Source of the DNA: Streptomyces sp. RPT161
Lineage (GTDB): Bacteria; Actinomycetota; Actinomycetes; Streptomycetales; Streptomycetaceae
NCBI RefSeq assembly: GCF_027533845.1
Contig: NZ_JAPZVN010000007.1
Coordinates: 62,001 to 126,000, forward strand
Length of the DNA stretch: 64,000 nt
Direction of reading: 5' to 3'
A program made the position numbers and the translations under genes. Below are positions 26,538-38,227 of the stretch, in pieces (within the stretch, counting starts at the first letter, position 1; every line of letters begins with the position of its first letter). A model generated the notes under the pieces. It was not told the origin of the DNA. It was given only the letters and a program-made list of their open reading frames with translations, and did no database searches.

Positions 26538-29354
26538 ATGCGACGACGCACCCTCACTCTCAGAACCGTGGCGGCGACCACGCTGCTCGCGCTCGGCGTC
26601 ACCCTGACCGGACCCGTTCCGCACGCGGCGGTCGCCGCCGACTCCGGCGGTGACTACTGCCAGGGCCAGTGCGACGACATCCTTCCGCCCGGCGAGAACG
26701 GCAACGCCACTCTCGCCGACATCCTCGGCAACAAACTGTTCGGCACCCATCCCGCACACACCGAGGACCAACTCGGCACCTATGGTGCGCTACCCGCAGG
26801 CTACGGCTCGCTCACCGACGCCACTCTCGGCGACTTCTACAACAGCTCCTCGTTCGGCGTCCCGTCCGACCAGGTCGAATCCGTGCAGCAGCCGCGCTCC
26901 GACGTCACCATCACCCGTGACAAGGCCACCGGCGTCCCGCACATCCAGGGCACCACCCGCTCCGGCACCGAGTTCGGGGCCGGGTACGCGGCGGCCGAGG
27001 ACCGGTTGTGGCTGATGGACCTCTTCCGACACGTCGGCCGCGGCGAGTTGACCTCCTTCGCCGGTGGCGCCGCCGCCAACCAGGGACTGGAGCAACAGTT
27101 CTTCAGCGCCGCCCCCTACACCGAGGCCGACCTACAGGCCCAGGTGGACCGCATCGCCAAGACCAACGGCGCCCGCGGCCAACAGGCGCTCGCCGACGCG
27201 CAGTCCTATGTGGACGGCATCAACGCCTACATCGGCCAGGCCAAACCGGGCCGGTACTTCCCCGGTGAGTACGACCTCACCGGCCACGTCAACGCCATCA
27301 CCAACGCCGGGGACATCGAGCCGTTCAAGCTCACCGACCTGATAGCGCTGGGCGCGGTGGTGGGCGCGCTGTTCGGCTCGGGCGGCGGTGGCCAGGTCCA
27401 GTCGGCGCTCGCGCTACAGGCCGCCCAGAACAAGTACGGGGTCGTCAAGGGCACCCAGGTCTGGGAGTCGTTCCGCGAGCGCAACGACCCGGAGGCGGTG
27501 CTGACCCTGCACGACGGGCAGAGCTTCCCCTACGCGGACCAGCCCGACCATCCGCGTGGCGAGGCGCTGCCCGACCCCGGTTCCGTCGTCCCGGAACCGC
27601 TTGTCTACGACCGCACCGGCTCAGCCGCCGGCAGCGGGGCCTCCGCGCGCACTCCGGTACGCGTTCCTGCGAAGCTGCGGCCGCTGCAGGGCATCTTCGA
27701 CAACGGCGTACTGCCCGGCAACCTGTTCTCCACGCCCAAGAAGGGCATGTCCAACGCGCTGCTGGTCTCCGGCAAGTACACCGCCAGCGGTCATCCCGTC
27801 GCCGTCTTCGGGCCGCAGACCGGCTACTTCGCGCCGCAGCTGCTGATGCGCGAGGAACTGCAGGGGCCCGGCATCAGTGCCCGCGGCGCGGCCTTCGCGG
27901 GCCTGAGCATGTACGTCGAACTCGGCCGCGGCCAGGACTACGCGTGGAGCGCCACCTCCGCGGGCCAGGACGTCATCGACACCTACGCCGTCGAACTGTG
28001 CGACCCCAGCGGAAACAAGCCCACCCTCCAGTCCAACTCCTACCTGTGGCATGGAAGTTGCGTGCCGTTCGAGAAGATCGAGCGCACCGACGCCTGGTCG
28101 CCGACGATCGCCGACTCCACCGCGGCGGGCTCGTACCGGATGCAGGTCTACCGCACGAAGTACGGCCTGGTGACCGCACGCGCCACGGTCGGCGGCAAGC
28201 CCGTCGCGTACACCTCGCTGCGCAGCTCCTACCAGCACGAGGCCGACTCGATCATCGGCTTCCAGATGCTCAACGACCCGGGGTTCGTGCACGACGCCCA
28301 GAGTTTCCAGCAGGCGGCGCAGCACATCAACTACACGTTCAACTGGTTCTACGCGGACTCCCGGGACATCGCCTACTACAACTCGGGCACCAACCCGGTG
28401 CGGGCCGCGGACGTGGACCCCTCACTTCCGGTGCTCGCGGAGCAGCAGTACGAGTGGCAGGGCTTCGACCCGGCCGACAACACCTCCGCGGCCACCCCGC
28501 CGTCGCAGCACCCGCAGTCCGTCGACCAGGACTACTACGTGTCCTGGAACAACAAGCAGGCCAAGGGCTACAGCTCGTCCGGGTTCGGCAACGGCTCGGT
28601 GCACCGCGTCAACCTGCTCGACGACCGGGTCAAGCGACTGGTCGGGCAGGGCGGCGTCACCCGTGCCTCGCTCACCCAGGCGATGGCCGACGCGGCCGTC
28701 ACCGACCTGCGCGGCGAGGACGTGCTTCCCGAACTGCTCGCGGTACTGCGCAGCAAGCCCGTCACCGATCCCCAACTCGCCAACGCGGTACAGGAACTGG
28801 CGAACTGGAGCAACGACGGTGCCAAGCGCAAGGAGACCTCGTCCGGCTCCCACACCTATGCCGACTCCGACGCGATCCGCATCATGGACGCCTGGTGGCC
28901 GCTGCTGGTCAAGGGCGAGTTCGAGCCGGGTCTCGGCAGTGACCTGTACAGTGCGCTGACCGCCAACCTGGGCGTGGACGAATCACCGTCGGCCGGGCAC
29001 GGTCCGACCGGATCGCATGCCGGAAGCTCCTTCCAGTTCGGCTGGTGGTCGTACGTGGACAAGGACCTGCGCGCGGTGCTCGGCAGGCCGGTCCAGGGCG
29101 GCCTGGCCGAGAAGTACTGCGGGAACGGCGATCTGGCCGCCTGCCAGTCGACGCTGCTGGACACCCTCAAGCAGGCCGTGGCCACCCCGGCGAACCAGGT
29201 CTACCCGGGCGACGGCACCGGCTGCTCGGCGGGTGACCAGTGGTGCGCCGACTCCATCCTTCAGCGGCCGCTCGGCGGCGTCACCGACGACCGGATCTCC
29301 TGGCAGAACCGCCCGACCTACCAGCAGGTGGTCGAATTCCCCAGCCATCGCTAG
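26538..29354 (+). CDS. Secreted penicillin acylase-family Ntn hydrolase
   Basis: 938 residues from ATG 26538, with GGGAGGAG 5 bp upstream. A signal peptide spans ~1-34 (HAAVAADSGG). The alpha-chain part contains GVPHIQGTTRSGTEFGAGYA and AAEDRLWLMDLFRHVGRGEL. The predicted autocatalytic break is before Ser405 in GMSNALLVSG, freeing the beta-chain nucleophile; EPGLGSD and YADSRDIAYYNSG fit later blocks. Such enzymes cleave amides: penicillins, cyclic lipopeptides (echinocandin, aculeacin) or N-acyl homoserine lactones. The linker before the beta chain is long (Ser/Gly-rich around 350-375). The spacer carries no tight Cys pattern. Substrate not predictable. It ends just before a strong hairpin. 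Confidence 0.93.
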   Translation: MRRRTLTLRTVAATTLLALGVTLTGPVPHAAVAADSGGDYCQGQCDDILPPGENGNATLADILGNKLFGTHPAHTEDQLGTYGALPAGYGSLTDATLGDFYNSSSFGVPSDQVESVQQPRSDVTITRDKATGVPHIQGTTRSGTEFGAGYAAAEDRLWLMDLFRHVGRGELTSFAGGAAANQGLEQQFFSAAPYTEADLQAQVDRIAKTNGARGQQALADAQSYVDGINAYIGQAKPGRYFPGEYDLTGHVNAITNAGDIEPFKLTDLIALGAVVGALFGSGGGGQVQSALALQAAQNKYGVVKGTQVWESFRERNDPEAVLTLHDGQSFPYADQPDHPRGEALPDPGSVVPEPLVYDRTGSAAGSGASARTPVRVPAKLRPLQGIFDNGVLPGNLFSTPKKGMSNALLVSGKYTASGHPVAVFGPQTGYFAPQLLMREELQGPGISARGAAFAGLSMYVELGRGQDYAWSATSAGQDVIDTYAVELCDPSGNKPTLQSNSYLWHGSCVPFEKIERTDAWSPTIADSTAAGSYRMQVYRTKYGLVTARATVGGKPVAYTSLRSSYQHEADSIIGFQMLNDPGFVHDAQSFQQAAQHINYTFNWFYADSRDIAYYNSGTNPVRAADVDPSLPVLAEQQYEWQGFDPADNTSAATPPSQHPQSVDQDYYVSWNNKQAKGYSSSGFGNGSVHRVNLLDDRVKRLVGQGGVTRASLTQAMADAAVTDLRGEDVLPELLAVLRSKPVTDPQLANAVQELANWSNDGAKRKETSSGSHTYADSDAIRIMDAWWPLLVKGEFEPGLGSDLYSALTANLGVDESPSAGHGPTGSHAGSSFQFGWWSYVDKDLRAVLGRPVQGGLAEKYCGNGDLAACQSTLLDTLKQAVATPANQVYPGDGTGCSAGDQWCADSILQRPLGGVTDDRISWQNRPTYQQVVEFPSHR

Positions 29355-29421: not shown

Positions 29422-30636
29422 CTAATGCGCTATCCGTCCGGCCAGCAGCACCAACCGGGCCAGACCCGCGTGGCAGATGTCCATGTGCGCGCCCATCGGC
29501 GGGTAGCCGCGCCGCACCACACCGGAGACGTCCACGCTCACCAGCCCGGACTCCGGAAAGTCCCGCCCGGCCGACGGAGAGGTCTCGGCGAGCGTGCGGC
29601 GGACGGCGTCGCTTCCCGCGGGGAGTCCGTGGTACCCGACCGCGGCCGGACTGCCGGTGCTGCCGGACGTGCGCCACGCCAGCGGATACAGCGTGCCGAG
29701 CCCGTCGTCGTACCGTGAATGGCACACCACCAGCGGCCCGTTGACCCGCTGCCGGGTGCCGCGCAGCGCGTCCGATGTGACCGCGCCCTGGAGCAGCGTC
29801 ACCGAGGCGGCGAACGCCCCGGCCGCCCGCACCCCGGACAGCGTCAGCCGCGCGCCGAAGCCGTGACCGAGCAGATGGACACGCACCCGTGGCGCCACGT
29901 CGGCGAGTTGGTCGAGCAGCTCGGCCAGCCCGATCTCGCCTATGAGGTCGGCCTGGCGGCAGATCCGGTAGTAGGCGAGCTGGCGCAGCACCTCCCTGGC
30001 GCCGCTCCACCGGCGGAAGGACGCGGCGTCCGAAGCGCCCTCGCGAGCGATCGGAACCGTCTCCGCACCGGTGCTCTCCAGCGCCGCCGCGAACTCCTCG
30101 CAGATCCGCTCGACGTCACCGGTGAGTATCGCCAGCCGGGCATCGGGGGCGAACCGCCGTGCCAGTTCGAAGAACTCGGTGAGCCGGCCCGATGAGGCGG
30201 GCCGCTCCCGAAGCAGCGCCGCCATGCGCCGTAGCTCCTTGGACCGGGAGGGGAACAGGTCGAGCAGACCGTCCAGGGTGTCCTTGTCCAACCCGCGCTG
30301 GACCGCCAGGTTCGCCGCCTGCTCGGCGAGCATCGACGGCCGGTAGTCCACCAGCGGTTCCTCGGTGAAGCGCAACGAGGGCCAGTACACGCCCGCGTAG
30401 CCCACCACCGCGTCCCGGCGGCCGCGTTCCAGCAACGCGGGGAAGGGCGTGAAGAAGCGGCGGTACACGCGGACCGCGGTGGCGAGGTCGTTGTTCCAGC
30501 CGTGCGCGAAGACGATCAGATCCGTGATCCCGGCCCCGGCAGCGCCCAGTATCAGCCGGTCACGCTGTTCCGGGTCGGCGCTGCCCTCCGCGTCGAAGGT
30601 CACCGTCCAGTACGGATCGACACCCATGGCCCCCAT
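29422..30636 (-). CDS. Alpha/beta hydrolase-like protein with degenerate nucleophile elbow
   Basis: 404 residues from ATG 30636 (purine-rich AGGGGGCGAG upstream; ATG 30627 possible). The fold signals are TDLIVFAHGWNND near 40 (oxyanion HGW) and VHLLGHGFGARLTLSG, where the nucleophile elbow G-x-S-x-G reads G-H-G-F-G: Gly (GGC) replaces the catalytic Ser. A C-terminal HMDICHAG could supply a His. Relatives carry annotations such as serine peptidase or are unnamed. Probably non-hydrolytic, perhaps a binding or scaffold protein; cytosolic, with no signal peptide. Its 3' end shares the hairpin at 29368-29404. Confidence 0.75.
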   Translation of the reverse strand: MGAMGVDPYWTVTFDAEGSADPEQRDRLILGAAGAGITDLIVFAHGWNNDLATAVRVYRRFFTPFPALLERGRRDAVVGYAGVYWPSLRFTEEPLVDYRPSMLAEQAANLAVQRGLDKDTLDGLLDLFPSRSKELRRMAALLRERPASSGRLTEFFELARRFAPDARLAILTGDVERICEEFAAALESTGAETVPIAREGASDAASFRRWSGAREVLRQLAYYRICRQADLIGEIGLAELLDQLADVAPRVRVHLLGHGFGARLTLSGVRAAGAFAASVTLLQGAVTSDALRGTRQRVNGPLVVCHSRYDDGLGTLYPLAWRTSGSTGSPAAVGYHGLPAGSDAVRRTLAETSPSAGRDFPESGLVSVDVSGVVRRGYPPMGAHMDICHAGLARLVLLAGRIAH

Positions 30637-30763
30637 CGGCTCGCCCCCTGCCGTTCTTCCCCGCCGCCCCCCAGCGTCCCCCTGGCCAGTGTGAGCTACA
30701 CCCATTACCGCCGGAAGATACTGTTCCGGCCAGCTGTCCGGGAATCCCACCCCTTCCCGATCC

Positions 30764-30783
30764 CATACCGACTGGTTAGTATG
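30764..30783. promoter_or_regulatory. Candidate TetR operator, SDR/acyl-CoA synthetase operon
   Basis: CATACCGACTGGTTAGTATG, a 20-bp imperfect palindrome with perfect 5-bp outer arms, 42 bp before the GTG of the SDR gene. It matches CATGCCGACCAGTCGGTATG at 37309-37328 in 15 of 20 positions. The TetR gene at 33327 is the likely source of its binder. Confidence 0.6.
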
Positions 30784-30825
30784 CGAGCGCTAGTCGCAGA
30801 TCCGACCAACCGAAGGGACTCCGGC

Positions 30826-31608
30826 GTGGGCGCGCACCAGGACACACGGATTGTGGTCACCGGCGCAGGACGCGGCATCGGCGCTGCCCTGGCCCGCAGA
30901 TTCGCCGCGGAGGGCGCCCGCCTGGTGGTCAACGACCTGGACGCGGACGCCGCCCGGGCCGTCGCCGAGGAACTGGGCGCGGTGGCCGTCCCCGGCGACG
31001 CCGCCAGCGAGCACGGGGTCGGCGAACTGATCCGGAAGGCCCGCACGGCGTTTGACGGGCCGATCGACGTCTACTGCGCCAACGCGGGCGTACCGACCGG
31101 CGGCGGCCCCGAGGCGTCGGAGGAGGACTGGGCGCTGGCGTGGGACGTCAACGTGATGGCCCATGTGCGCGCCGCGCGGGCACTGCTGCCGGAGTGGCTG
31201 GAGCGCGGCCAGGGCAGGTTCGTCGCCACGGTGTCCGCCGCCGGACTGCTCACCATGATCGGCGCGGCCCCCTACTCGGTGACCAAGCACGGCGCGCTCG
31301 CCTTCGCCGAGTGGCTCTCGCTGACCTACCGGCACCGCGGCGTCCAGGTGCACGCTGTCTGCCCGCAGGGCGTGCGTACCGACATGCTGGACGGCACCGG
31401 CGCCGCCGGGCAACTGGTGCTCGCGCCCACGGCCATCGAGCCGGAGAAGGTGGCCGAGGCCGTGCTCGCCGGAATCGCCGACAACCGCTTCCTGATCCTG
31501 CCGCACCCGGAAGTCGCCCAGTTCTACACCAACCGCGCAAGCGACCCGGACCGCTGGCTGGGCGGGATGAACAAGCTGCAGCGGCACCTGGAGGACGGTG
31601 AGGCGTGA
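30826..31608 (+). CDS. Short-chain dehydrogenase/reductase
   Basis: 260 residues from GTG 30826, chosen for GAAGGGA at proper spacing; ATG 30781 in the same frame overlaps the operator. Classical SDR: cofactor loop TGAGRGIGAA, acidic residue NDLD after strand 2 (favours NAD(H)), CANAG, and the catalytic Ser/Tyr/Lys as VSAAG and YSVTKHG. It oxidises or reduces a hydroxyl/keto group on an acyl substrate. The stop overlaps the acyl-CoA synthetase start (GTGA), so the two work as a unit. In the proposed pathway it would interconvert a 4-keto and a 4-hydroxy acyl-CoA, or act at a 3-hydroxy step. Confidence 0.93.
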   Translation: MGAHQDTRIVVTGAGRGIGAALARRFAAEGARLVVNDLDADAARAVAEELGAVAVPGDAASEHGVGELIRKARTAFDGPIDVYCANAGVPTGGGPEASEEDWALAWDVNVMAHVRAARALLPEWLERGQGRFVATVSAAGLLTMIGAAPYSVTKHGALAFAEWLSLTYRHRGVQVHAVCPQGVRTDMLDGTGAAGQLVLAPTAIEPEKVAEAVLAGIADNRFLILPHPEVAQFYTNRASDPDRWLGGMNKLQRHLEDGEA

Positions 31609-33266
31609 GGTACGCGGACAAACCCTGGCTCCAGCACCTCAGCGCCGAACACATCGCCCCGGTCGATCCGCCGCCCACCATGCTGCACGCGTTCCGTGCG
31701 TCGGCCCGGCGCGTCCCCGACCGCACCGCACTCGTCTACTTCGACGGACGGCTGACCTACTCCGAGGCCGACGCGCTCTCCGACGGCATCGCCAACCACC
31801 TGCTGGCACACGGCTTCCGGCCCGGCGACCGCACCGCGATCGCGCTGCAGAACACCCCGCAGTTCGTCCTCGCACTGCTCGCCACCTGGAAGGCGGGCGG
31901 CATCGCGGTGCCGGTCAGCCCCATGTACAAGAGCCGGGAACTCGGCCACGTGCTGCGGGACGCCCAGGCGACGGCGCTGGTCTGCCATGAGCGCGGCTGG
32001 AGCGCGTACATCCGGGAGACCGTCGCCGACTCGGCGGTCCACATCGCGCTGACCACGAGCGAGTTGGACCTGCAAAGCCGAGACGACCACCGGGTGCTGC
32101 CGACCGATGCCGGGAGCCATCCCGACGACGCCACCGACCTGTTGGCCGCCCGCGCCTCGGCGGGCACACCGGTGCCCGAACCGGCGCTCGGCCCCGACGA
32201 CGCCGCGCTGATCACCTACACCTCCGGCACCACCGGAGTGCCCAAGGGAGCGCGCAACACCCACGGCAACATGGCCTACAACGCCCAACGCCAGTGCCGG
32301 ATCCTCCAGTTGCCCGACGGCGCCGTGATCTTCGCGCTGGCGCCGCTGTTCCACATCAGCGGGATGGTCTCGCAACTCGCCGCCGCCCTCACCGGCGGTT
32401 CCACCCTGGCCATGGCGTACCGGTTCGAGGCGGGCGTGGTGCTCGACGCCATCCGCGAGCACCGGCCCGCCTACATGGTCGGGCCGTCCACCGCCTACAT
32501 CGCGCTGATGGCCCGGCCGGACACCAGTGCCGACGACTTCGCCTCCTTCCGGTGGCTCAGCTCCGGCGGCGCACCGCTGCCGCCCGCGGTGGTCGAGGAG
32601 TTCCGGCGGCGCTACGGCCACTACGTGCGCAACGGGTACGGGCTCACCGAGTGCACCGGCGCCTGCGCCAGCGTGCCGCCGGGCAAGGAGGCCCCGGTCG
32701 ATCCGGTCTCCGGGACGCTGGCGGTGGGCGTGCCGGGCCCCGACACCGTGATCCGGATCGTCGACGAGACCGGCGGCGACGTGCCGTTCGGCGAGCACGG
32801 CGAGATCGCGGTGCGCGGCCCCATGGTGGTGCCCGGCTACTGGCGGCGGCCCGAGGAGTCGGCCGCCACCCTTCCGGACGGTGAACTGCGCACCGGCGAC
32901 ATCGGGTTCATGGACGAGACGGGCTGGCTCTACGTCGTGGACCGCAAGAAGGACATGATCAGCGCCTCCGGATTCAAGGTATGGCCACGCGAGGTCGAAG
33001 ACGTGCTCTACACCCATCCGGCGGTACGGGAAGCGGCCGTCGTCGGCGTACCCCACCCCTACCGCGGCGAGACCGTCAAGGCGTACGTCAGCCTCAAACC
33101 CGGTGCTTCGGTGGATTCCTGCGAACTGGTGGCGTACTGCAAGGACCGGCTCGCGGCGTACAAGTACCCGCGCGAGGTCGAGCTCCTGGCCGAACTCCCC
33201 AAGAACACCAGCGGAAAGATCCTGCGCCGTGAGCTGCGCGGGCTACCAGGTCAACGGCGCGGCTAG
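31605..33266 (+). CDS. Acyl-CoA synthetase (AMP-forming)
   Basis: 553 residues from GTG 31605. ANL superfamily adenylate-forming enzyme: P-loop-like YTSGTTGVPKGA near 205, NGYGLTECTG near 345, TGDIGFMDETGWLYVVDRKK near 430, and the catalytic lysine region KNTSGKILRREL at the C-terminus. It activates a fatty or related acid with ATP and CoA. Coupled to the SDR upstream and followed by the TetR gene 60 bp downstream. It would supply acyl-CoA for the kinase/dehydrogenase pair on the other strand. Substrate range not predictable. Confidence 0.95.
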   Translation: MRYADKPWLQHLSAEHIAPVDPPPTMLHAFRASARRVPDRTALVYFDGRLTYSEADALSDGIANHLLAHGFRPGDRTAIALQNTPQFVLALLATWKAGGIAVPVSPMYKSRELGHVLRDAQATALVCHERGWSAYIRETVADSAVHIALTTSELDLQSRDDHRVLPTDAGSHPDDATDLLAARASAGTPVPEPALGPDDAALITYTSGTTGVPKGARNTHGNMAYNAQRQCRILQLPDGAVIFALAPLFHISGMVSQLAAALTGGSTLAMAYRFEAGVVLDAIREHRPAYMVGPSTAYIALMARPDTSADDFASFRWLSSGGAPLPPAVVEEFRRRYGHYVRNGYGLTECTGACASVPPGKEAPVDPVSGTLAVGVPGPDTVIRIVDETGGDVPFGEHGEIAVRGPMVVPGYWRRPEESAATLPDGELRTGDIGFMDETGWLYVVDRKKDMISASGFKVWPREVEDVLYTHPAVREAAVVGVPHPYRGETVKAYVSLKPGASVDSCELVAYCKDRLAAYKYPREVELLAELPKNTSGKILRRELRGLPGQRRG

Positions 33267-33268
33267 CC

Positions 33269-33286
33269 GCGTACCGGTCGGTACGC
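33269..33286. promoter_or_regulatory. Candidate operator upstream of the TetR gene
   Basis: GCGTACCGGTCGGTACGC, an 18-bp palindrome with only the two central positions out of symmetry, 40 bp before the TetR start. The right half GTCGGTACG resembles GTCGGTATG of the 37309 site, so it may be the autoregulatory copy with a shorter centre. This link is weaker than the 30764/37309 match. Confidence 0.45.
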
Positions 33287-33326
33287 TGGCAGTCCATTCG
33301 CGGGTACGCAGAGGAAGGGAACGGCC

Positions 33327-33923
33327 ATGGCAGACGGCGGCGACACCAAGGCGGCCACGGTTCCGCAACGGCTGCTGGCCGAGGCCACCCGCCTCTTCGC
33401 CGACCGGGGCTTCGACCGCACCTCCGTCCAGGAGATCGTGGAGGCCGCCGGGGTGACCAAGGGCGCGCTCTACCACTACTTCGGCAGCAAGGACGACCTG
33501 CTGCACGAGGTGTACGCACGGGTACTGCGACTACAGACCGAACGACTGGAGGAGATCGCCTCCGGTACCGGGACGGTCACCGAGCGGCTGCACCGCGCCG
33601 CCGCCGACGTCGTGGTGACCAGCATCGAGAACCTGGACGACACCAAGATCTTCTTCCGGTCGATGCACCAGCTCAGCCCGGAGAAGCAGAAGGCGGTTCG
33701 GGCCGAACGCCGCCGCTACCACGAGCGGTTCCGCGCACTGGTCGAGGAGGGGCAGCGGGAGGGCACCTTCCGCCCCGAGCTGCGCCCCGACCTGGTCGTG
33801 GACTACTTCTTCGGCTCGGTCCACCACCTGGGCACCTGGTACCGCGAGGGCGGACCGCTGTCCGCCGCCCAGGTGGCCTCGGAGTTCGCAGATCTGCTGC
33901 TGTACTCGGTACGGCGGCCCTGA
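33327..33923 (+). CDS. TetR-family regulator of the acyl-CoA module
   Basis: 198 residues from ATG 33327 (GAGGAAGGGAA upstream). The helix-turn-helix spans ~12-55 (TRLFADRGFDRTSVQEIVEA, TKGALYHYFGSKDDLLHEVY). The C-terminal domain contains FFRSMHQLSPEKQKAVRAER, as in KstR/FadR-like TetR_C_33/QsdR-type regulators of lipid genes. It is embedded between the acyl-CoA synthetase and quinone oxidoreductase genes on the same strand. Similar palindromes before the SDR operon, before this gene and before the kinase/SDR divergent pair suggest that it is the local repressor, released by an acyl-CoA. Confidence 0.93.
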   Translation: MADGGDTKAATVPQRLLAEATRLFADRGFDRTSVQEIVEAAGVTKGALYHYFGSKDDLLHEVYARVLRLQTERLEEIASGTGTVTERLHRAAADVVVTSIENLDDTKIFFRSMHQLSPEKQKAVRAERRRYHERFRALVEEGQREGTFRPELRPDLVVDYFFGSVHHLGTWYREGGPLSAAQVASEFADLLLYSVRRP

Positions 33924-33941
33924 GGTTACGGAGAACCCCCT

Positions 33942-34928
33942 GTGAAGGCATGGCGCGTACACGAGACCGGGGAGCCGCGGGAGGCCATGCGCCTCGAAGA
34001 GGTCCCCGACCCGGTACCCGGGCCCGGTGAAGTGCTGGTGCGGGTGCGCGCCGCCAACGTGAACTTCCCCGACGCACTGCTGTGCCGGGGCCAGTACCAG
34101 ATCCGCCCCGAGTCGCCGTTCACCCCCGGCGTCGAACTGTGCGGGGAGATACGGGAGTTGGGCCCTGGTGTCACCGGACTCCAGCCCGGCGCCCGGGTGA
34201 TCGCCCCGGCCACGCCGCCCGGCGGGGCGTTCGCCGAGCTGGCGGTCGTCAAGGCGGCGACCGTACTGCCCGCGCCCGAGTCCCTCGACGACGCCGAGGC
34301 CGCCGCGCTGCACATCGGCTACCAGACGGGCTGGTTCGGGCTGCACCGCAGGGCGGCGCTGCGCGCCGGTGAGACTCTGCTGGTGCACGCGGCGGCGGGC
34401 GGCGTCGGAAGCGCCGCCGTACAGCTGGGCAAGGCCGCCGGCGCCTCGGTGATCGGCGTGGTGGGCGGCCCGGAGAAGGCCGCCGTGGCCGCCGAGTTGG
34501 GCTGCGACGTCGTGGTGGACCGGCGTACGCAGGACTTCGTCGCCGTCGTCAAGGAGGCGACCGGCGGGCGCGGCGCGGACGTGGTCTACGACCCGGTGGG
34601 CGGCGAGGCGTACGCCCGCTCCACCAAGTGCGTCGCCTTCGAGGGCCGCATCGTGGTGGTCGGTTTCACCAGCGGCACCATCCCCACCCCCGGCCTCAAC
34701 CACGCCCTGGTCAAGAACTACTCGATCCTGGGCCTGCACTGGGGCCTGTACAACACCCACGACCCGGCGGCGATCCACCACTGCCACCGGGAACTGACCC
34801 GCCTGGCAGCGGGGTCGAAGGTGAAGCCGCTGGTCACGGAGCGTCTGCCGCTCGGGGCAGCGGCGGACGCCGTACAACGGGTGGCCGACGGCACGACGAC
34901 GGGCCGCCTGGTCATCGTCACGGCCTGA
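33942..34928 (+). CDS. NADPH:quinone oxidoreductase-type MDR enzyme
   Basis: 328 residues from GTG 33942. Zinc-free medium-chain reductase: N-terminal GroES-like fold (GPGEVLVRVRAANVNFPDAL), VHAAAGGVGSAAVQLGKAAG as the nucleotide site, and VYDPVGGEAYARSTK. No structural-zinc cysteines are seen. These enzymes reduce quinones or 2-enoyl substrates with NADPH. It follows the TetR gene by 18 bp and is probably in the same transcript as the SDR/synthetase genes. In an acyl catabolic module it may act as an enoyl reductase or detoxify enones. Confidence 0.93.
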   Translation: MKAWRVHETGEPREAMRLEEVPDPVPGPGEVLVRVRAANVNFPDALLCRGQYQIRPESPFTPGVELCGEIRELGPGVTGLQPGARVIAPATPPGGAFAELAVVKAATVLPAPESLDDAEAAALHIGYQTGWFGLHRRAALRAGETLLVHAAAGGVGSAAVQLGKAAGASVIGVVGGPEKAAVAAELGCDVVVDRRTQDFVAVVKEATGGRGADVVYDPVGGEAYARSTKCVAFEGRIVVVGFTSGTIPTPGLNHALVKNYSILGLHWGLYNTHDPAAIHHCHRELTRLAAGSKVKPLVTERLPLGAAADAVQRVADGTTTGRLVIVTA

Positions 34929-35015
34929 CTGTCTCCTCAGTCGCCGGACGAGCTCTGAAAATGAGCCCGTCCGGCGGCTGAGGACAAGCCGCGCCAGCGG
35001 CGGCGACGGGACGGC

Positions 35016-35036
35016 CCGGGGGGCGAAGCCCCCCGG
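35016..35036. terminator. Perfect 9-bp GC hairpin between convergent genes
   Basis: CCGGGGGGC, loop GAA, GCCCCCCGG: nine uninterrupted pairs with a 3-nt loop, followed by AAAA, between the ends of the quinone oxidoreductase (+) and the ACAD11-like dehydrogenase (-). Confidence 0.8.
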
Positions 35037-35057
35037 AAAAGGGCGGACGGGCGGGAG

Positions 35058-36266
35058 TCACACGTACCGCTGGAGCTCCCGGCGCGCCAGCGACCTCTTG
35101 TGCACCTCGTCCGGCCCGTCGGCCAGCCGCAACGTCCGCGCCGCGGCCCACAGTTCCGCCAGCGGAAAGTCCTGGCTGACCCCGGCCGCCCCATGTACCT
35201 GGATCGCCCGGTCCACGATCCGCTGCACGGCCGCCGGAGTTGCGATCTTGATCGCCTGGATCTCGGTGTGGGCCCCACGGTTGCCCACCGTGTCCATCAG
35301 CCACGCCGTCTTCAGCACCAGGAGCCGCAACTGCTCGATCTCCACCCGCGCTTCGGCGATCCACTCCCGTACCACGCCCTGCGCGGCGATCGGCTTGCCG
35401 AAGGCGGACCGGGCCACGGCGCGGCGGCACATCAACTCGACCGCCCGCTCGGCCATCCCGATCAGCCGCATGCAGTGGTGGATCCGGCCGGGGCCGAGCC
35501 GGGCCTGGGCGATGGCGAAGCCGCCGCCCTCCTCGCCGATCAGGTTCGTCACCGGTACGCGCACATCCTGGAAGACCACCTCGGCGTGGCCGCCGTGGTC
35601 ACCGTCGTCGTAGCCGAACACCCGCATTCCGCGCCGTACCTCGACACCGGGTGTGTCCCGTGGCACCAGGACCATGCTCTGCTGGCGGTGCCGGTCCGCC
35701 GACGGATCGGTCTTGCCCATGACGATGAAGATCCGGCAGTTGGGGTTCATCGCCCCGGAGATGTACCACTTGCGGCCGTTGATGACGTACTCGTCACCGA
35801 CACGCTCGATCCGGGTTTCGATGTTCGTCGCGTCAGAAGAGGCGACATCCGGCTCGGTCATCGCGAACGCCGAACGGATCTCGCCCGCGAGCAGCGGTTC
35901 CAGCCACGCCTTGCGCTGCTCCTCGGTGCCGAACTCGTTCAGCACCTCCATGTTGCCGGTGTCGGGGGCGGCGCAGTTGAGGGCGGGAGGCGCCAAGTGC
36001 GGGCTGCGGCCGGTGATTTCGGCGAGCGGCGCGTACTGGAGGTTGGTCAGTCCGCCGCCGCTCTCGCCCGGCAGGAACAGGTTCCACAGGCCGCGCTCAC
36101 GGGCCTCGGCCTTCAGCTCCGCCACCACCGGAGGCGGGGACCAGGGGTCGTCCGCCTCGGCGCGCTGCCGGGCGAAGACCGGTTCCGCCGGGTAGACGAA
36201 CTCGTCCATGAAGGCCAGCAGTCGCCGCCGCAACTCCTCGGTGCGCGCGTCGTATCCGAAGTCCAT
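35058..36266 (-). CDS. ACAD10/11-like acyl-CoA dehydrogenase
   Basis: 402 residues. Full acyl-CoA dehydrogenase fold, but its signatures match the dehydrogenase half of mammalian ACAD11/ACAD10 and bacterial LvaC as I know them: [82 protein letters not shown]. Where ordinary members have YEGT with the catalytic Glu, this one reads [14 protein letters not shown]11/LvaC convert a 4-phospho-acyl-CoA to the 3-hydroxy isomer through a dehydrogenation/elimination type reaction. It sits 5 bp after the kinase gene on the minus strand, in one operon. Confident on subfamily, inferred for substrate. Confidence 0.9.
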
Positions 36267-36271
36267 GCCGT

Positions 36272-37300
36272 TCAGTCCTTCTCGCTGAGGATGGTGAGCC
36301 CACGGTCGATGAAGGCCGGGACCAGGGTGCCGATGCGGTCGAAGCCCGCGCCCACGGTCTGGCCGAGGGTGAAGCGGTAGTGGATGCCCTCCAGGATCAC
36401 CGCGAGCTTGAAGTAGGCGAACGCGGTGTACCAGGCGACCGCGGAGGCGTCCCGTCCGGAGCGCTCCGCGTAGCGGGCGACGAGTTCCGCGGGTTCGGGG
36501 TGGCCGGGGGCGCCGCTGGTGGTGGCGACCGGAGAGTCCTCGACCGGCAGCCGCTCGCTGTACATGACCAGCAGACCCAGGTCGGTGAGCGGATCGCCGA
36601 GGGTGGACATCTCCCAGTCGAGGACCGCGCGGATCCGGCCGTCCGGGCCGACCAGTACGTTGTCCAGCCGGTAGTCACCGTGCACCACGGTGGGCGCGCC
36701 GGAGGCCGGCAGCCGGGTGGCGAGCCCGTCCCGCAGCTCGTCGATGCCGGGCAGCTCCCGGTTGCGGGAGGCGGCGAGTTGCTTGTCCCAGCGGCGCAAC
36801 TGCCGTTCCAGGAAGCCTTCCGGGCGCCCGAAGTCCGACAGCCCGGCTCCGGCCGGATCCACGGCGTGCAGGTCCACCAGCGTGTCGACCAGGCCCAGCA
36901 CCACCTCGCGGGTGCGCTCGGGGCCGATCTGGGCGAGCTGCGCCGCGGTGCGGTACGGCGTTCCGTCGACGTGTTCCATCACGTAGAACGGCGCCCCGAG
37001 CACCGTCTCGTCCCGGCACAGCAGCAGTGGCCTCGGCACCGGTACCGGTGTGGGGTGCAGTCCGGTCAGTACGGTGAACTCGCGCCCCATGTCGTGCGCG
37101 GTGGCCAGCACGTGTCCGAGCGGCGGCCTGCGCACCACCCAGCGGGAGACGCCGTCGGTCACGGCGTAGGTGAGGTTCGAGCGACCGCCCTCTATCAGCC
37201 GCCCGGTGAGCGGTCCGGTGACGAGGCCCGGCCGCTCGCGGTCCACGTATGCGCGCAACCGCTCCAGATCCAGGCCGGGGGGATTGTCAGTCGTGGTCAT
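36272..37300 (-). CDS. APH-like phosphotransferase (ACAD11 kinase half / LvaA-like)
   Basis: 342 residues from ATG 37300. Aminoglycoside/choline-kinase fold: nucleotide region [15 protein letters not shown] with WVVRRPP, hinge FYVMEHVDG, catalytic loop HGDYRLDNV (His207, Asp209, Asn214) and metal-binding Asp228 in [12 protein letters not shown]. The last two motifs resemble the N-terminal kinase domain of mammalian ACAD10/11 and of LvaA, which phosphorylates the 4-hydroxyl of 4-hydroxyacyl-CoA. First gene of the operon with the ACAD11-like dehydrogenase (5-bp gap). Operator-like palindromes lie just upstream. No separate LvaB-like small subunit is visible. Confidence 0.9.
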
Positions 37301-37308
37301 CCGGCCAT

Positions 37309-37328
37309 CATGCCGACCAGTCGGTATG
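37309..37328. promoter_or_regulatory. Candidate TetR operator before kinase/dehydrogenase operon
   Basis: CATGCCGACCAGTCGGTATG, 20-bp palindrome with most positions paired, 8 bp upstream of the kinase start. It is closely related to the site at 30764-30783 in front of the SDR/synthetase operon. Confidence 0.6.
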
Positions 37329-37361
37329 GCGTCCAGAGGGGATCGCCGTAAGGGCGGTGAA

Positions 37362-37375
37362 GAGAACGTGTTCTA
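37362..37375. promoter_or_regulatory. KstR-like motif in divergent kinase/SDR promoter
   Basis: GAGAACGTGTTCTA fits the published KstR-type consensus TnnAACnnGTTnnA at every fixed position except the first T. The core AGAAC-GT-GTTCT is symmetric. It lies 87 bp before the SDR start, separate from the 37309 site, so a second lipid-responsive TetR encoded elsewhere may act here. Confidence 0.45.
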
Positions 37376-37462
37376 AGTCTCGCGGGCATCCGCTACCTTC
37401 GTGCCGCGATCAAGATCGAGCCGATTGGGGTGGCCGGTATCCGGCCACAGGGAGGGAACGCG

Positions 37463-38227
37463 ATGAACCGATTCGACGGGCGGAAAGTGCTGGTCACCGG
37501 GGCGGGGTCAGGCATCGGGCAGGCGGCCGCGCTACGGCTGCTGGCCGAGGGGGCGACCCTGGCTGCCGCCGACATCAGCGAGGACGGCCTGAAGCGGACG
37601 GCGGAGCGCGCCGAGGCCGACGGGCTGGCGGCGCGACTGACCACCGTCGCGCTGGACATCGCCGACGAGGCGTCCGTCGAGCGGGTGGTCGGCGACGCGG
37701 TGTCCGGTCTGGGCGGCCTGGACGTCGTGGTCAACGCGGCCGGAATCCTGCGCAGTTCGCACACCCACCAGATGACGCTGGAGTTCTGGAACCGGATCAT
37801 CGGGGTCAACCTCACCGGCACCTTCCTGGTCACCCGCGCCGCACTGCCCGCCCTGCTGGACAGCGGCCGGGGCGTGGTCATCAACTTCAGTTCCACCTCC
37901 GCCTCGTTCGCGCACCCGTACATGGCCGCCTATGCGGCCAGCAAGGGCGGCATCCAGTCCTTCACCCACGCGCTGGCGCTGGAGTACAGCAAGCAGGGCC
38001 TGCGCGCGGCCTGTGTCGCGCCCGGCAGCATCCAGTCCGGCATGACCGCCGACCCCGGTCTGCCGGAGGACACCGACTGGAGCCTGCTGTCCAAGCTGCT
38101 CCCGGCGGTCGGCGAGGGCTTCGCGCCGCCGGAGACGGTGGCCTCGGTCGTCGCGATGCTGGCGTCCGACGACGGCGCCTTCATCACGGGCACCGAGATC
38201 AGGGTGGACGGCGGCACGCACATGTAA
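37463..38227 (+). CDS. Short-chain dehydrogenase/reductase (FabG-like)
   Basis: 254 residues from ATG 37463, with GGAGGGAA immediately upstream. Classical SDR: TGAGSGIGQA, AADISED after strand 2, VVNAAGIL, catalytic NFSSTSA and YAASKGG, and the C-terminal FITGTEIRVDGGTHM typical of FabG-like dehydrogenases. Divergent from the kinase/dehydrogenase operon and sharing its regulatory region, so it is likely part of the same pathway, for example oxidising the 3-hydroxyacyl-CoA made by the ACAD11-like enzyme or reducing a 4-keto precursor as LvaD does. Confidence 0.94.
   Translation: MNRFDGRKVLVTGAGSGIGQAAALRLLAEGATLAAADISEDGLKRTAERAEADGLAARLTTVALDIADEASVERVVGDAVSGLGGLDVVVNAAGILRSSHTHQMTLEFWNRIIGVNLTGTFLVTRAALPALLDSGRGVVINFSSTSASFAHPYMAAYAASKGGIQSFTHALALEYSKQGLRAACVAPGSIQSGMTADPGLPEDTDWSLLSKLLPAVGEGFAPPETVASVVAMLASDDGAFITGTEIRVDGGTHM

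Follow-up and report, generated by a model that had tools for sequence, protein, structure and literature searches.

Does Streptomyces sp. RPT161 possess a bacterial counterpart of the mammalian route for 4-hydroxy acids, and how might the respective genes be controlled? This question is raised by a gene cluster in the window analysed here, a stretch of 64,000 nucleotides (contig NZ_JAPZVN010000007.1, positions 62,001 to 126,000) from a genome of 7.69 Mb in 139 contigs. Between positions 30781 and 37300 of the window, genes for a short-chain dehydrogenase/reductase (SDR1), an acyl-CoA synthetase, a TetR regulator and a reductase are located on one strand, convergent with a pair of genes for a kinase and an acyl-CoA dehydrogenase (ACAD). 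A first-pass annotation had taken this pair for the two halves of the mammalian ACAD10/11 fusion, an idea that the comparisons below support for both proteins. We estimate a probability of about 0.8 that the region is a catabolic module under TetR control that degrades 4-hydroxy, and probably also 4-oxo, fatty acids with ACAD10/11 in a two-protein form. Profile searches and open reading frames recovered all of the genes that had been named, including a second short-chain dehydrogenase/reductase (SDR2), and the quoted kinase and ACAD motifs are present. Family-level protein matches reached E-values as low as 8e-141, far above chance.

A kinase and a dehydrogenase related to the halves of ACAD11

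The ACAD (35058..36266, minus strand) is an ACAD10/11-type enzyme of the acyl-CoA dehydrogenase fold. Its best matches in the PDB were the ACAD11 entries 8v3u (473 bits), 8v3v (471 bits) and 2wbi (470 bits), followed by 4hr3 at 449 bits; the next entry, the best ordinary ACAD, scored 151 bits. The protein is 56% identical to the human ACAD11 stretch of solved structure and 61% identical to a stand-alone Pseudomonas protein. Furthermore, all six of the ACAD11 positions tested are kept: R256 (R626 in ACAD11), R261 (R631), H264 (H634), R267 (R637), D383 (D753) and H227 (H597). In the ACAD11 model presented in PMC12440821, R626, H634 and R637 contact the 4-phosphate and are not found in conventional ACADs, D753 is the base and R631 is given as general. 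The same report describes alanine or leucine at R626, H634 or R637 as the most disruptive replacements.

Eleven of the 21 further ACAD matches in the genome were inspected for these signature residues, and the set was missing from ten of them. In a tree of 66 chosen rows, the window ACAD and human ACAD11 share a 48-row clade (100/100), within which the window ACAD belongs to a 17-row branch (100/99) of proteins from relatives and actinomycete plasmids. Ten ordinary ACADs of the genome fall outside the 48-row clade. Clustering with such ordinary enzymes had been named beforehand as the result that would speak against the ACAD10/11 assignment, and the tree placed the protein with ACAD11 instead. 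The reading as an ordinary ACAD was rejected on this placement and on the residue set. From its sequence, the enzyme is expected to convert a 4-phosphoacyl-CoA to a 2-enoyl-CoA.

A second ACAD of the same genome (locus L010/L276, G000:C65:49417-50544) retains the catalytic Asp and the whole signature except H634, where it has Arg, and its gene adjoins that of an AMP-binding synthetase. The genome has 17 PF01636 matches, all on other contigs, and the protein is an unexplained relative of the phospho-ACADs.

The kinase (36272..37300, minus strand), an APH-family protein (PF01636, 187 bits), is encoded by the first gene of the kinase-ACAD pair, and only 5 bases separate its stop codon from the ACAD start. 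The kinase thus precedes the ACAD, as in the order of the fused domains. Its nearest PDB entry was 9o56 (235 bits), followed by ACAD11 (183 and 180 bits) and 3dxp (178 bits), after which the scores dropped to 49; the next match within the same genome reached only 62 bits. Identity to the human ACAD11 stretch is 36%. The equivalents of the catalytic ACAD11 residues D220 and N225, and of R176, a modelled CoA contact, are conserved, and the R86 equivalent was not placed with confidence. By homology, this protein is a predicted ACAD10/11-type 4-hydroxyacyl-CoA kinase, and its pairing with a putative phosphate-eliminating ACAD is well supported.

PF01636 is a broad family, and the kinase also matched models of APH(3') and other phosphotransferases weakly, as it did PDB entries that include macrolide and viomycin kinases. 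Conceivably, the kinase could therefore act on an unrelated alcohol of the antibiotic, choline or macrolide type, next to an ACAD that serves ordinary beta-oxidation. However, the kinase's five NCBIfam scores are far under their cut-offs, the ACAD carries the Asp plus R-R-H-R set that is missing from 10 of the 11 other ACADs inspected in this genome, and the two genes remain paired in related loci. We regard this explanation as extremely improbable.

In the proposed route, which follows the chemistry reported for ACAD10/11 (PMC12440821, PMC11342911), the FadD-like AMP-binding acyl-CoA synthetase (31605..33266, plus strand; PF00501, 307 bits) would convert the acid to its CoA ester. SDR1 (30781..31608, plus strand; PF00106), the gene of which overlaps that of the synthetase by 4 bases, would interconvert 4-oxoacyl-CoA and 4-hydroxyacyl-CoA. 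The kinase would then phosphorylate the 4-hydroxyl group with ATP. Next, Asp383 of the ACAD would abstract the alpha proton, FAD would shuttle electrons internally, and the phosphate would be expelled to yield a 2-enoyl-CoA for beta-oxidation encoded elsewhere. The reductase (33942..34928, plus strand) belongs to the medium-chain dehydrogenase/reductase superfamily and resembles quinone oxidoreductases of the PIG3 kind (PF00107, 104 bits; TIGR02824, 248 bits, under the cut-off of 297). It may be an ene-reductase.

Relation to the levulinate operons of Pseudomonas

The same enzyme classes, namely a kinase, an ACAD, an SDR and an acyl-CoA synthetase, make up the lva operon of Pseudomonas, and the first-pass annotation had likened the pair to LvaA and LvaC. 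As references we used Pseudomonas operons that were assigned as lva-like by gene order and stand in for LvaA and LvaC of KT2440. One of these, L240, encodes a kinase, a DUF6285 protein, a histidine phosphatase, an ACAD and an SDR, an order close to that reported for lva of P. citronellolis (PMC6692424). ACADs of the L240 type were found in 11 of 149 genomes at 1e-85, and regions were taken for 8 of these 11. The kinase, DUF6285 and ACAD genes follow in succession in L262-L266. Each of these five loci then has a synthetase match, and L263-L265 also have an SDR match; a histidine phosphatase gene intervenes in L267, and L268 and L269 are arranged otherwise. Since the order in L262-L266 matches lvaABCDE, DUF6285 is probably LvaB, a protein of 12 kDa that is reported to partner LvaA (PMC6692424). 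A literature search on DUF6285 found no paper.

The ACADs of the lva-like operons also keep the R...R..HCMR plus Asp signature, but they are only distantly related to the window ACAD (36-38% identity) and to human ACAD11 (34-37%). Likewise, the lva-like kinases are 30-34% identical to the window kinase over 209-232 residues and score 75-87 bits against it, versus 192 bits for ACAD11, and SDR1 and SDR2 show 25-32% identity to the SDRs of these operons. The proposed likeness to LvaA and LvaC was thus not upheld as stated, as both proteins are closer in identity to ACAD11. In the ACAD tree, the L240 protein was placed outside the 48-row ACAD11 clade. The absence of an LvaB-like small subunit, noted earlier for the region, appears to extend to the whole genome, in which the DUF6285 profile has no match; among 26 genomes none reached the cut-off, and one sub-threshold match was seen in G012. 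Because the lva-like ACADs are distant, the L240 ACAD lies outside the clade and the genome contains no DUF6285 match, the module is assigned by sequence to the ACAD10/11 kind and not to the Lva kind. Recombinant ACAD10 and ACAD11 are reported to be active on their own (PMC11342911, PMC12440821). The regulators differ as well, with a TetR protein here instead of LvaR, which is of the sigma54 type (PMC6692424). Despite the shared enzyme classes, an LvaABCDE-type levulinate operon is thus very unlikely.

Mammalian ACAD10 and ACAD11, which are reported to act on 4-hydroxy acids (PMC12440821, PMC11342911), share with the module the sequence identities and diagnostic residues given above. They differ in that the bacterial kinase and ACAD are two separate proteins, encoded in a cluster with TetR, FadD, SDR1 and the reductase. 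Stand-alone bacterial proteins of this type have precedents: Burkholderia orthologues are reported to replace the ACAD10 domains (PMC11342911), and the stand-alone Pseudomonas ACADs fall in the same 48-row clade as the window ACAD. Unlike the window ACAD, however, those of Pseudomonas (L218, L219, L225 and L228) adjoin an open reading frame that looks LysR-like by eye and have no kinase alongside, the kinase being encoded elsewhere. An identity of 56% between ACAD11 and LvaC has been reported (PMC11342911). In our comparisons, human ACAD11 is 56-57% identical to the stand-alone Pseudomonas ACAD (L218, L228) and 34-37% identical to the lva-like operon ACADs (L240, L262, L263, L265), and it should be checked which protein was compared as LvaC.

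Conservation of the module and its candidate operator

Among 41 genomes, including that of RPT161, a kinase match at 1e-30 and an ACAD match at 1e-80 were each found in 38. The kinase gene directly precedes the ACAD gene on one strand in 22 of 35 kinase-bearing loci (21 relatives and L118), with 9-124 bases between the BLAST ends. SDR1 is a conserved partner of the pair, and on plasmids it recurs beside the kinase and the ACAD. A Tsukamurella plasmid encodes homologues of SDR1 (61% identity), the reductase (67%), FadD (41%), the kinase (51%) and the ACAD (75%), together with MaoC, FabG, a thiolase and a phosphotriesterase-family protein. Two Deinococcus plasmids have SDR1 homologues (45-47%) near ACAD and kinase genes. 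Among the best 15 of 50 SDR1-bearing plasmid records, an ACAD match (from the best 60 of 202 records) lies within 5 kb of SDR1 in at least 7. On a plasmid of Streptomyces sp. NBC_00388 (L281, 6853-15487), a kinase-ACAD pair is followed by genes for ketosynthases, a CoA-transferase, a HAD hydrolase and an AfsA-domain protein, and a link of that cluster to butyrolactone signals is possible.

The TetR regulator (33327..33923, plus strand) has a TetR_C_24 domain (PF17932, 103 bits). Its PDB matches were 3dcf (96 bits), 3vpr (87 bits) and KstR2 (79 bits), a regulator likewise of the TetR_C_24 type. KstR2 is a repressor of CoA-dependent catabolism, with another operator and a cholesterol-ring substrate. 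A palindrome that was absent from the first-pass account, TACCGACYGGT, precedes SDR1, TetR and the kinase, the 12-base site being set 3, 43 and 14 bases, respectively, ahead of the start codon. The candidate operators are CCATACCGACTGGTTAGT (30763..30780, plus strand) before SDR1-FadD, which also lies between SDR1 and a divergent gene, GCGTACCGACCGGTACGC (33269..33286, minus strand) before TetR-reductase, and CCATACCGACTGGTCGGC (37312..37329, minus strand) before kinase-ACAD. At two or fewer mismatches the window contains 22 matches, compared with a mean of 9.4 and a maximum of 19 in shuffled sequence, and the case for the palindrome therefore rests on position and conservation.

For the upstream counts, matches below 50% identity and genes with less than 150 bases of upstream sequence were left out, which gave, over loci up to L119, 26 kinase, 22 TetR, 18 SDR1, 10 reductase, 8 FadD and 4 SDR2 genes. 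In the 200 bases ahead of the gene, the exact palindrome was present for the kinase in 15/26, for TetR in 11/22 and for SDR1 in 5/18, against a background of 0.9% in 3000 random 200-base windows from the same loci. It was also found before the genes ENO (3/7), SDR2 (4/4) and S442 (2/5) and the acylase gene ACY (2/6), and its positions before ENO, SDR2 and S442 fit shared divergent promoters. No exact copy was seen in these loci upstream of GntP, GlcK, FadRg, FadD or the reductase.

A literature text search for the palindrome led to TTHB023/PfmR of Thermus thermophilus, the translation of which agrees with the 3vpr stretch. PfmR is reported to bind CCTACCGACCGGTCGG at 0.3 nM and TTTACCGACCGGTTGG at 1 nM (PMC7022988), and the bound site has the same core as the window palindrome. 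Sites of the TACCGACCGGT type accompany both the gene of the window TetR, a homologue of PfmR with 32.5% identity, and the kinase and ACAD genes. In the PfmR mutant, transcripts of the putative ACAD TTHB015 and the phosphotransferase TTHB014 were increased (log2 +1.68 and +1.86; adjusted p 0.02), and the operon was proposed to serve degradation of fatty acids or branched-chain amino acids (PMC7022988). Both systems share a TetR_C_24 repressor, an operator core and, presumably, control over a kinase and an ACAD. In contrast to the module, the Thermus operon appears to be lva-type, because it holds DUF6285 and a histidine phosphatase next to an ACAD with the signature. In Cytobacillus spongiae, ACATACCAACCGGTTAGT lies upstream of SDR-ACAD-TetR, with the kinase downstream. 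When 80 loci of named genomes were scanned with TACCRACYGGT, three had both a TetR and a site, two only a TetR, one only a site and 74 neither, a hypergeometric association of 4.8e-4 that overstates independence, as all five TetR loci are from Bacillaceae genera.

Judging from this conservation, the palindrome likely unites SDR1-FadD, TetR-reductase and kinase-ACAD in a single regulon. The PfmR/KstR2-like TetR would bind the three sites and would probably be released by an acyl-CoA. Several observations weigh against the module as proposed. No hydratase, thiolase or lactonase was seen among its genes. The kinase tree (54 rows; L203, with no kinase match, was dropped) groups the kinase with those of relatives, but its deep forks are weak (56/92) and it shows no specific join to the ACAD11 kinase. 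In the 35 kinase-bearing loci, the ACAD precedes the kinase in 8 and no ACAD match lies on the kinase strand in 4, and in L115 the two genes are 986 bases apart. The genome-wide palindrome scan gave 15 matches, versus 11 for a reversed control, so that the motif alone is not specific; three of the matches are in the module and one of interest lies elsewhere. An exact palindrome is missing upstream of 11 of the 26 kinase genes, and in L091, L102, L103, L105, L106 and L107 none was found even at two mismatches. The Tsukamurella cluster and the two Deinococcus clusters have no palindrome. Finally, the other downstream genes of the Thermus operon had adjusted p values of 0.07-0.17 in the PfmR mutant (PMC7022988).

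Boundaries of the module and its possible substrates

The left edge had been placed at position 30764, which is out of frame with SDR1 (8 stops); the ATG at 30781 is a plausible start. Of the two SDRs that had been counted into the module, SDR1 stands as a conserved partner. SDR2 (37430..38227, plus strand), at the far end of the region, was rejected as a member. Copies of at least 79% identity occur in four of the 41 loci (L081, L082, L083 and L089), each time with an enolase-superfamily gene, which is present without SDR2 in L084, L086 and L087. L085, L088 and L090 retain SDR1, TetR, kinase and ACAD without SDR2, and L091 has SDR1, kinase and ACAD but neither SDR2 nor TetR. The enolase-superfamily gene adjoins genes for a GntP permease, a small P-loop kinase that reads as gluconokinase-like and a GntR-FCD regulator. 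SDR2 thus probably belongs with this sugar-acid-like island.

On the other side, the gene at 29422-30750 (minus strand) diverges from SDR1 across the palindrome. Pfam and NCBIfam searches gave no match for its product, which has AHGWNND and GHGFG motifs; a relative in L090 has GHSFG. Perhaps it is an alpha/beta-hydrolase that lost its nucleophile in part of its clade. The gene at 26538-29354 (plus strand) encodes a penicillin-amidase family acylase (380 bits) and is kept near SDR1 in several relatives.

As natural substrates, gamma-lactones and 4-hydroxy or 4-oxo acids are all compatible with the module. The genome also contains a gene for an old yellow enzyme (OYE; G000:C74:437694-438818, loci L131 and L272), with CATACCGACTGGTACC beginning about 30 bases upstream. 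This site is exact in three of ten gene-bearing genomes (RPT161, G002 and G005), degenerate in G001 and G011, and not found in G004, G007, G009, G032 and G033 at the spacing searched. OYE is a possible extra regulon member and, together with the reductase, offers a thin suggestion of unsaturated precursors. In a narrower form of our explanation, lipid-peroxidation products or gamma-lactones would be the substrates. The reductase and OYE would first saturate 4-hydroxy-2-enals or butenolides, and the module would then degrade the 4-hydroxy acid. The OYE site, the activity of mammalian ACAD10/11 on 4-hydroxy acids, and the occurrence in related clusters of proteins from the phosphotriesterase family and of strictosidine-synthase/SMP-30-like proteins are in line with this. 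So is the finding that four 18-kb stretches around OYE contained no relative of the window TetR (best E 0.3), although more distant TetRs may be present. Considering that the OYE site is degenerate or missing in most genomes, and that no lactonase or aldehyde dehydrogenase was recognised in the module, we consider this form rather doubtful.

More speculatively, a PfmR-type TetR and the operator RCATACCRACYGGTYRGT might form a cross-phylum unit, in Actinomycetota, Bacillota and Deinococcota, that is dedicated to 4-hydroxyacyl-CoA catabolism and serves both ACAD10/11-type and lva-type pairs. On this view, the actual role of the Thermus 'phenylacetate and fatty acid' regulator would be to control genes for 4-hydroxy/4-oxo acids, and the window family might handle gamma-lactones or 4-hydroxy acids from peroxidised lipids with the aid of ene-reductases. 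Literature searches led to papers on ACAD10/11, lva and PfmR, and among those listed no link between PfmR or the palindrome and 4-hydroxy-acid enzymes was found in the titles, opening lines of abstracts and passages covered, which is weak evidence, as subscription papers were mostly outside the search.

Together these findings connect a human lipid pathway, for which the enzymes were assigned in 2024-2025, to a bacterial cluster whose candidate operator is defined, and the physiological substrate can therefore be sought by inducer screening. In addition, they offer a candidate function for DUF6285 and for a Thermus regulon whose purpose has been unclear.

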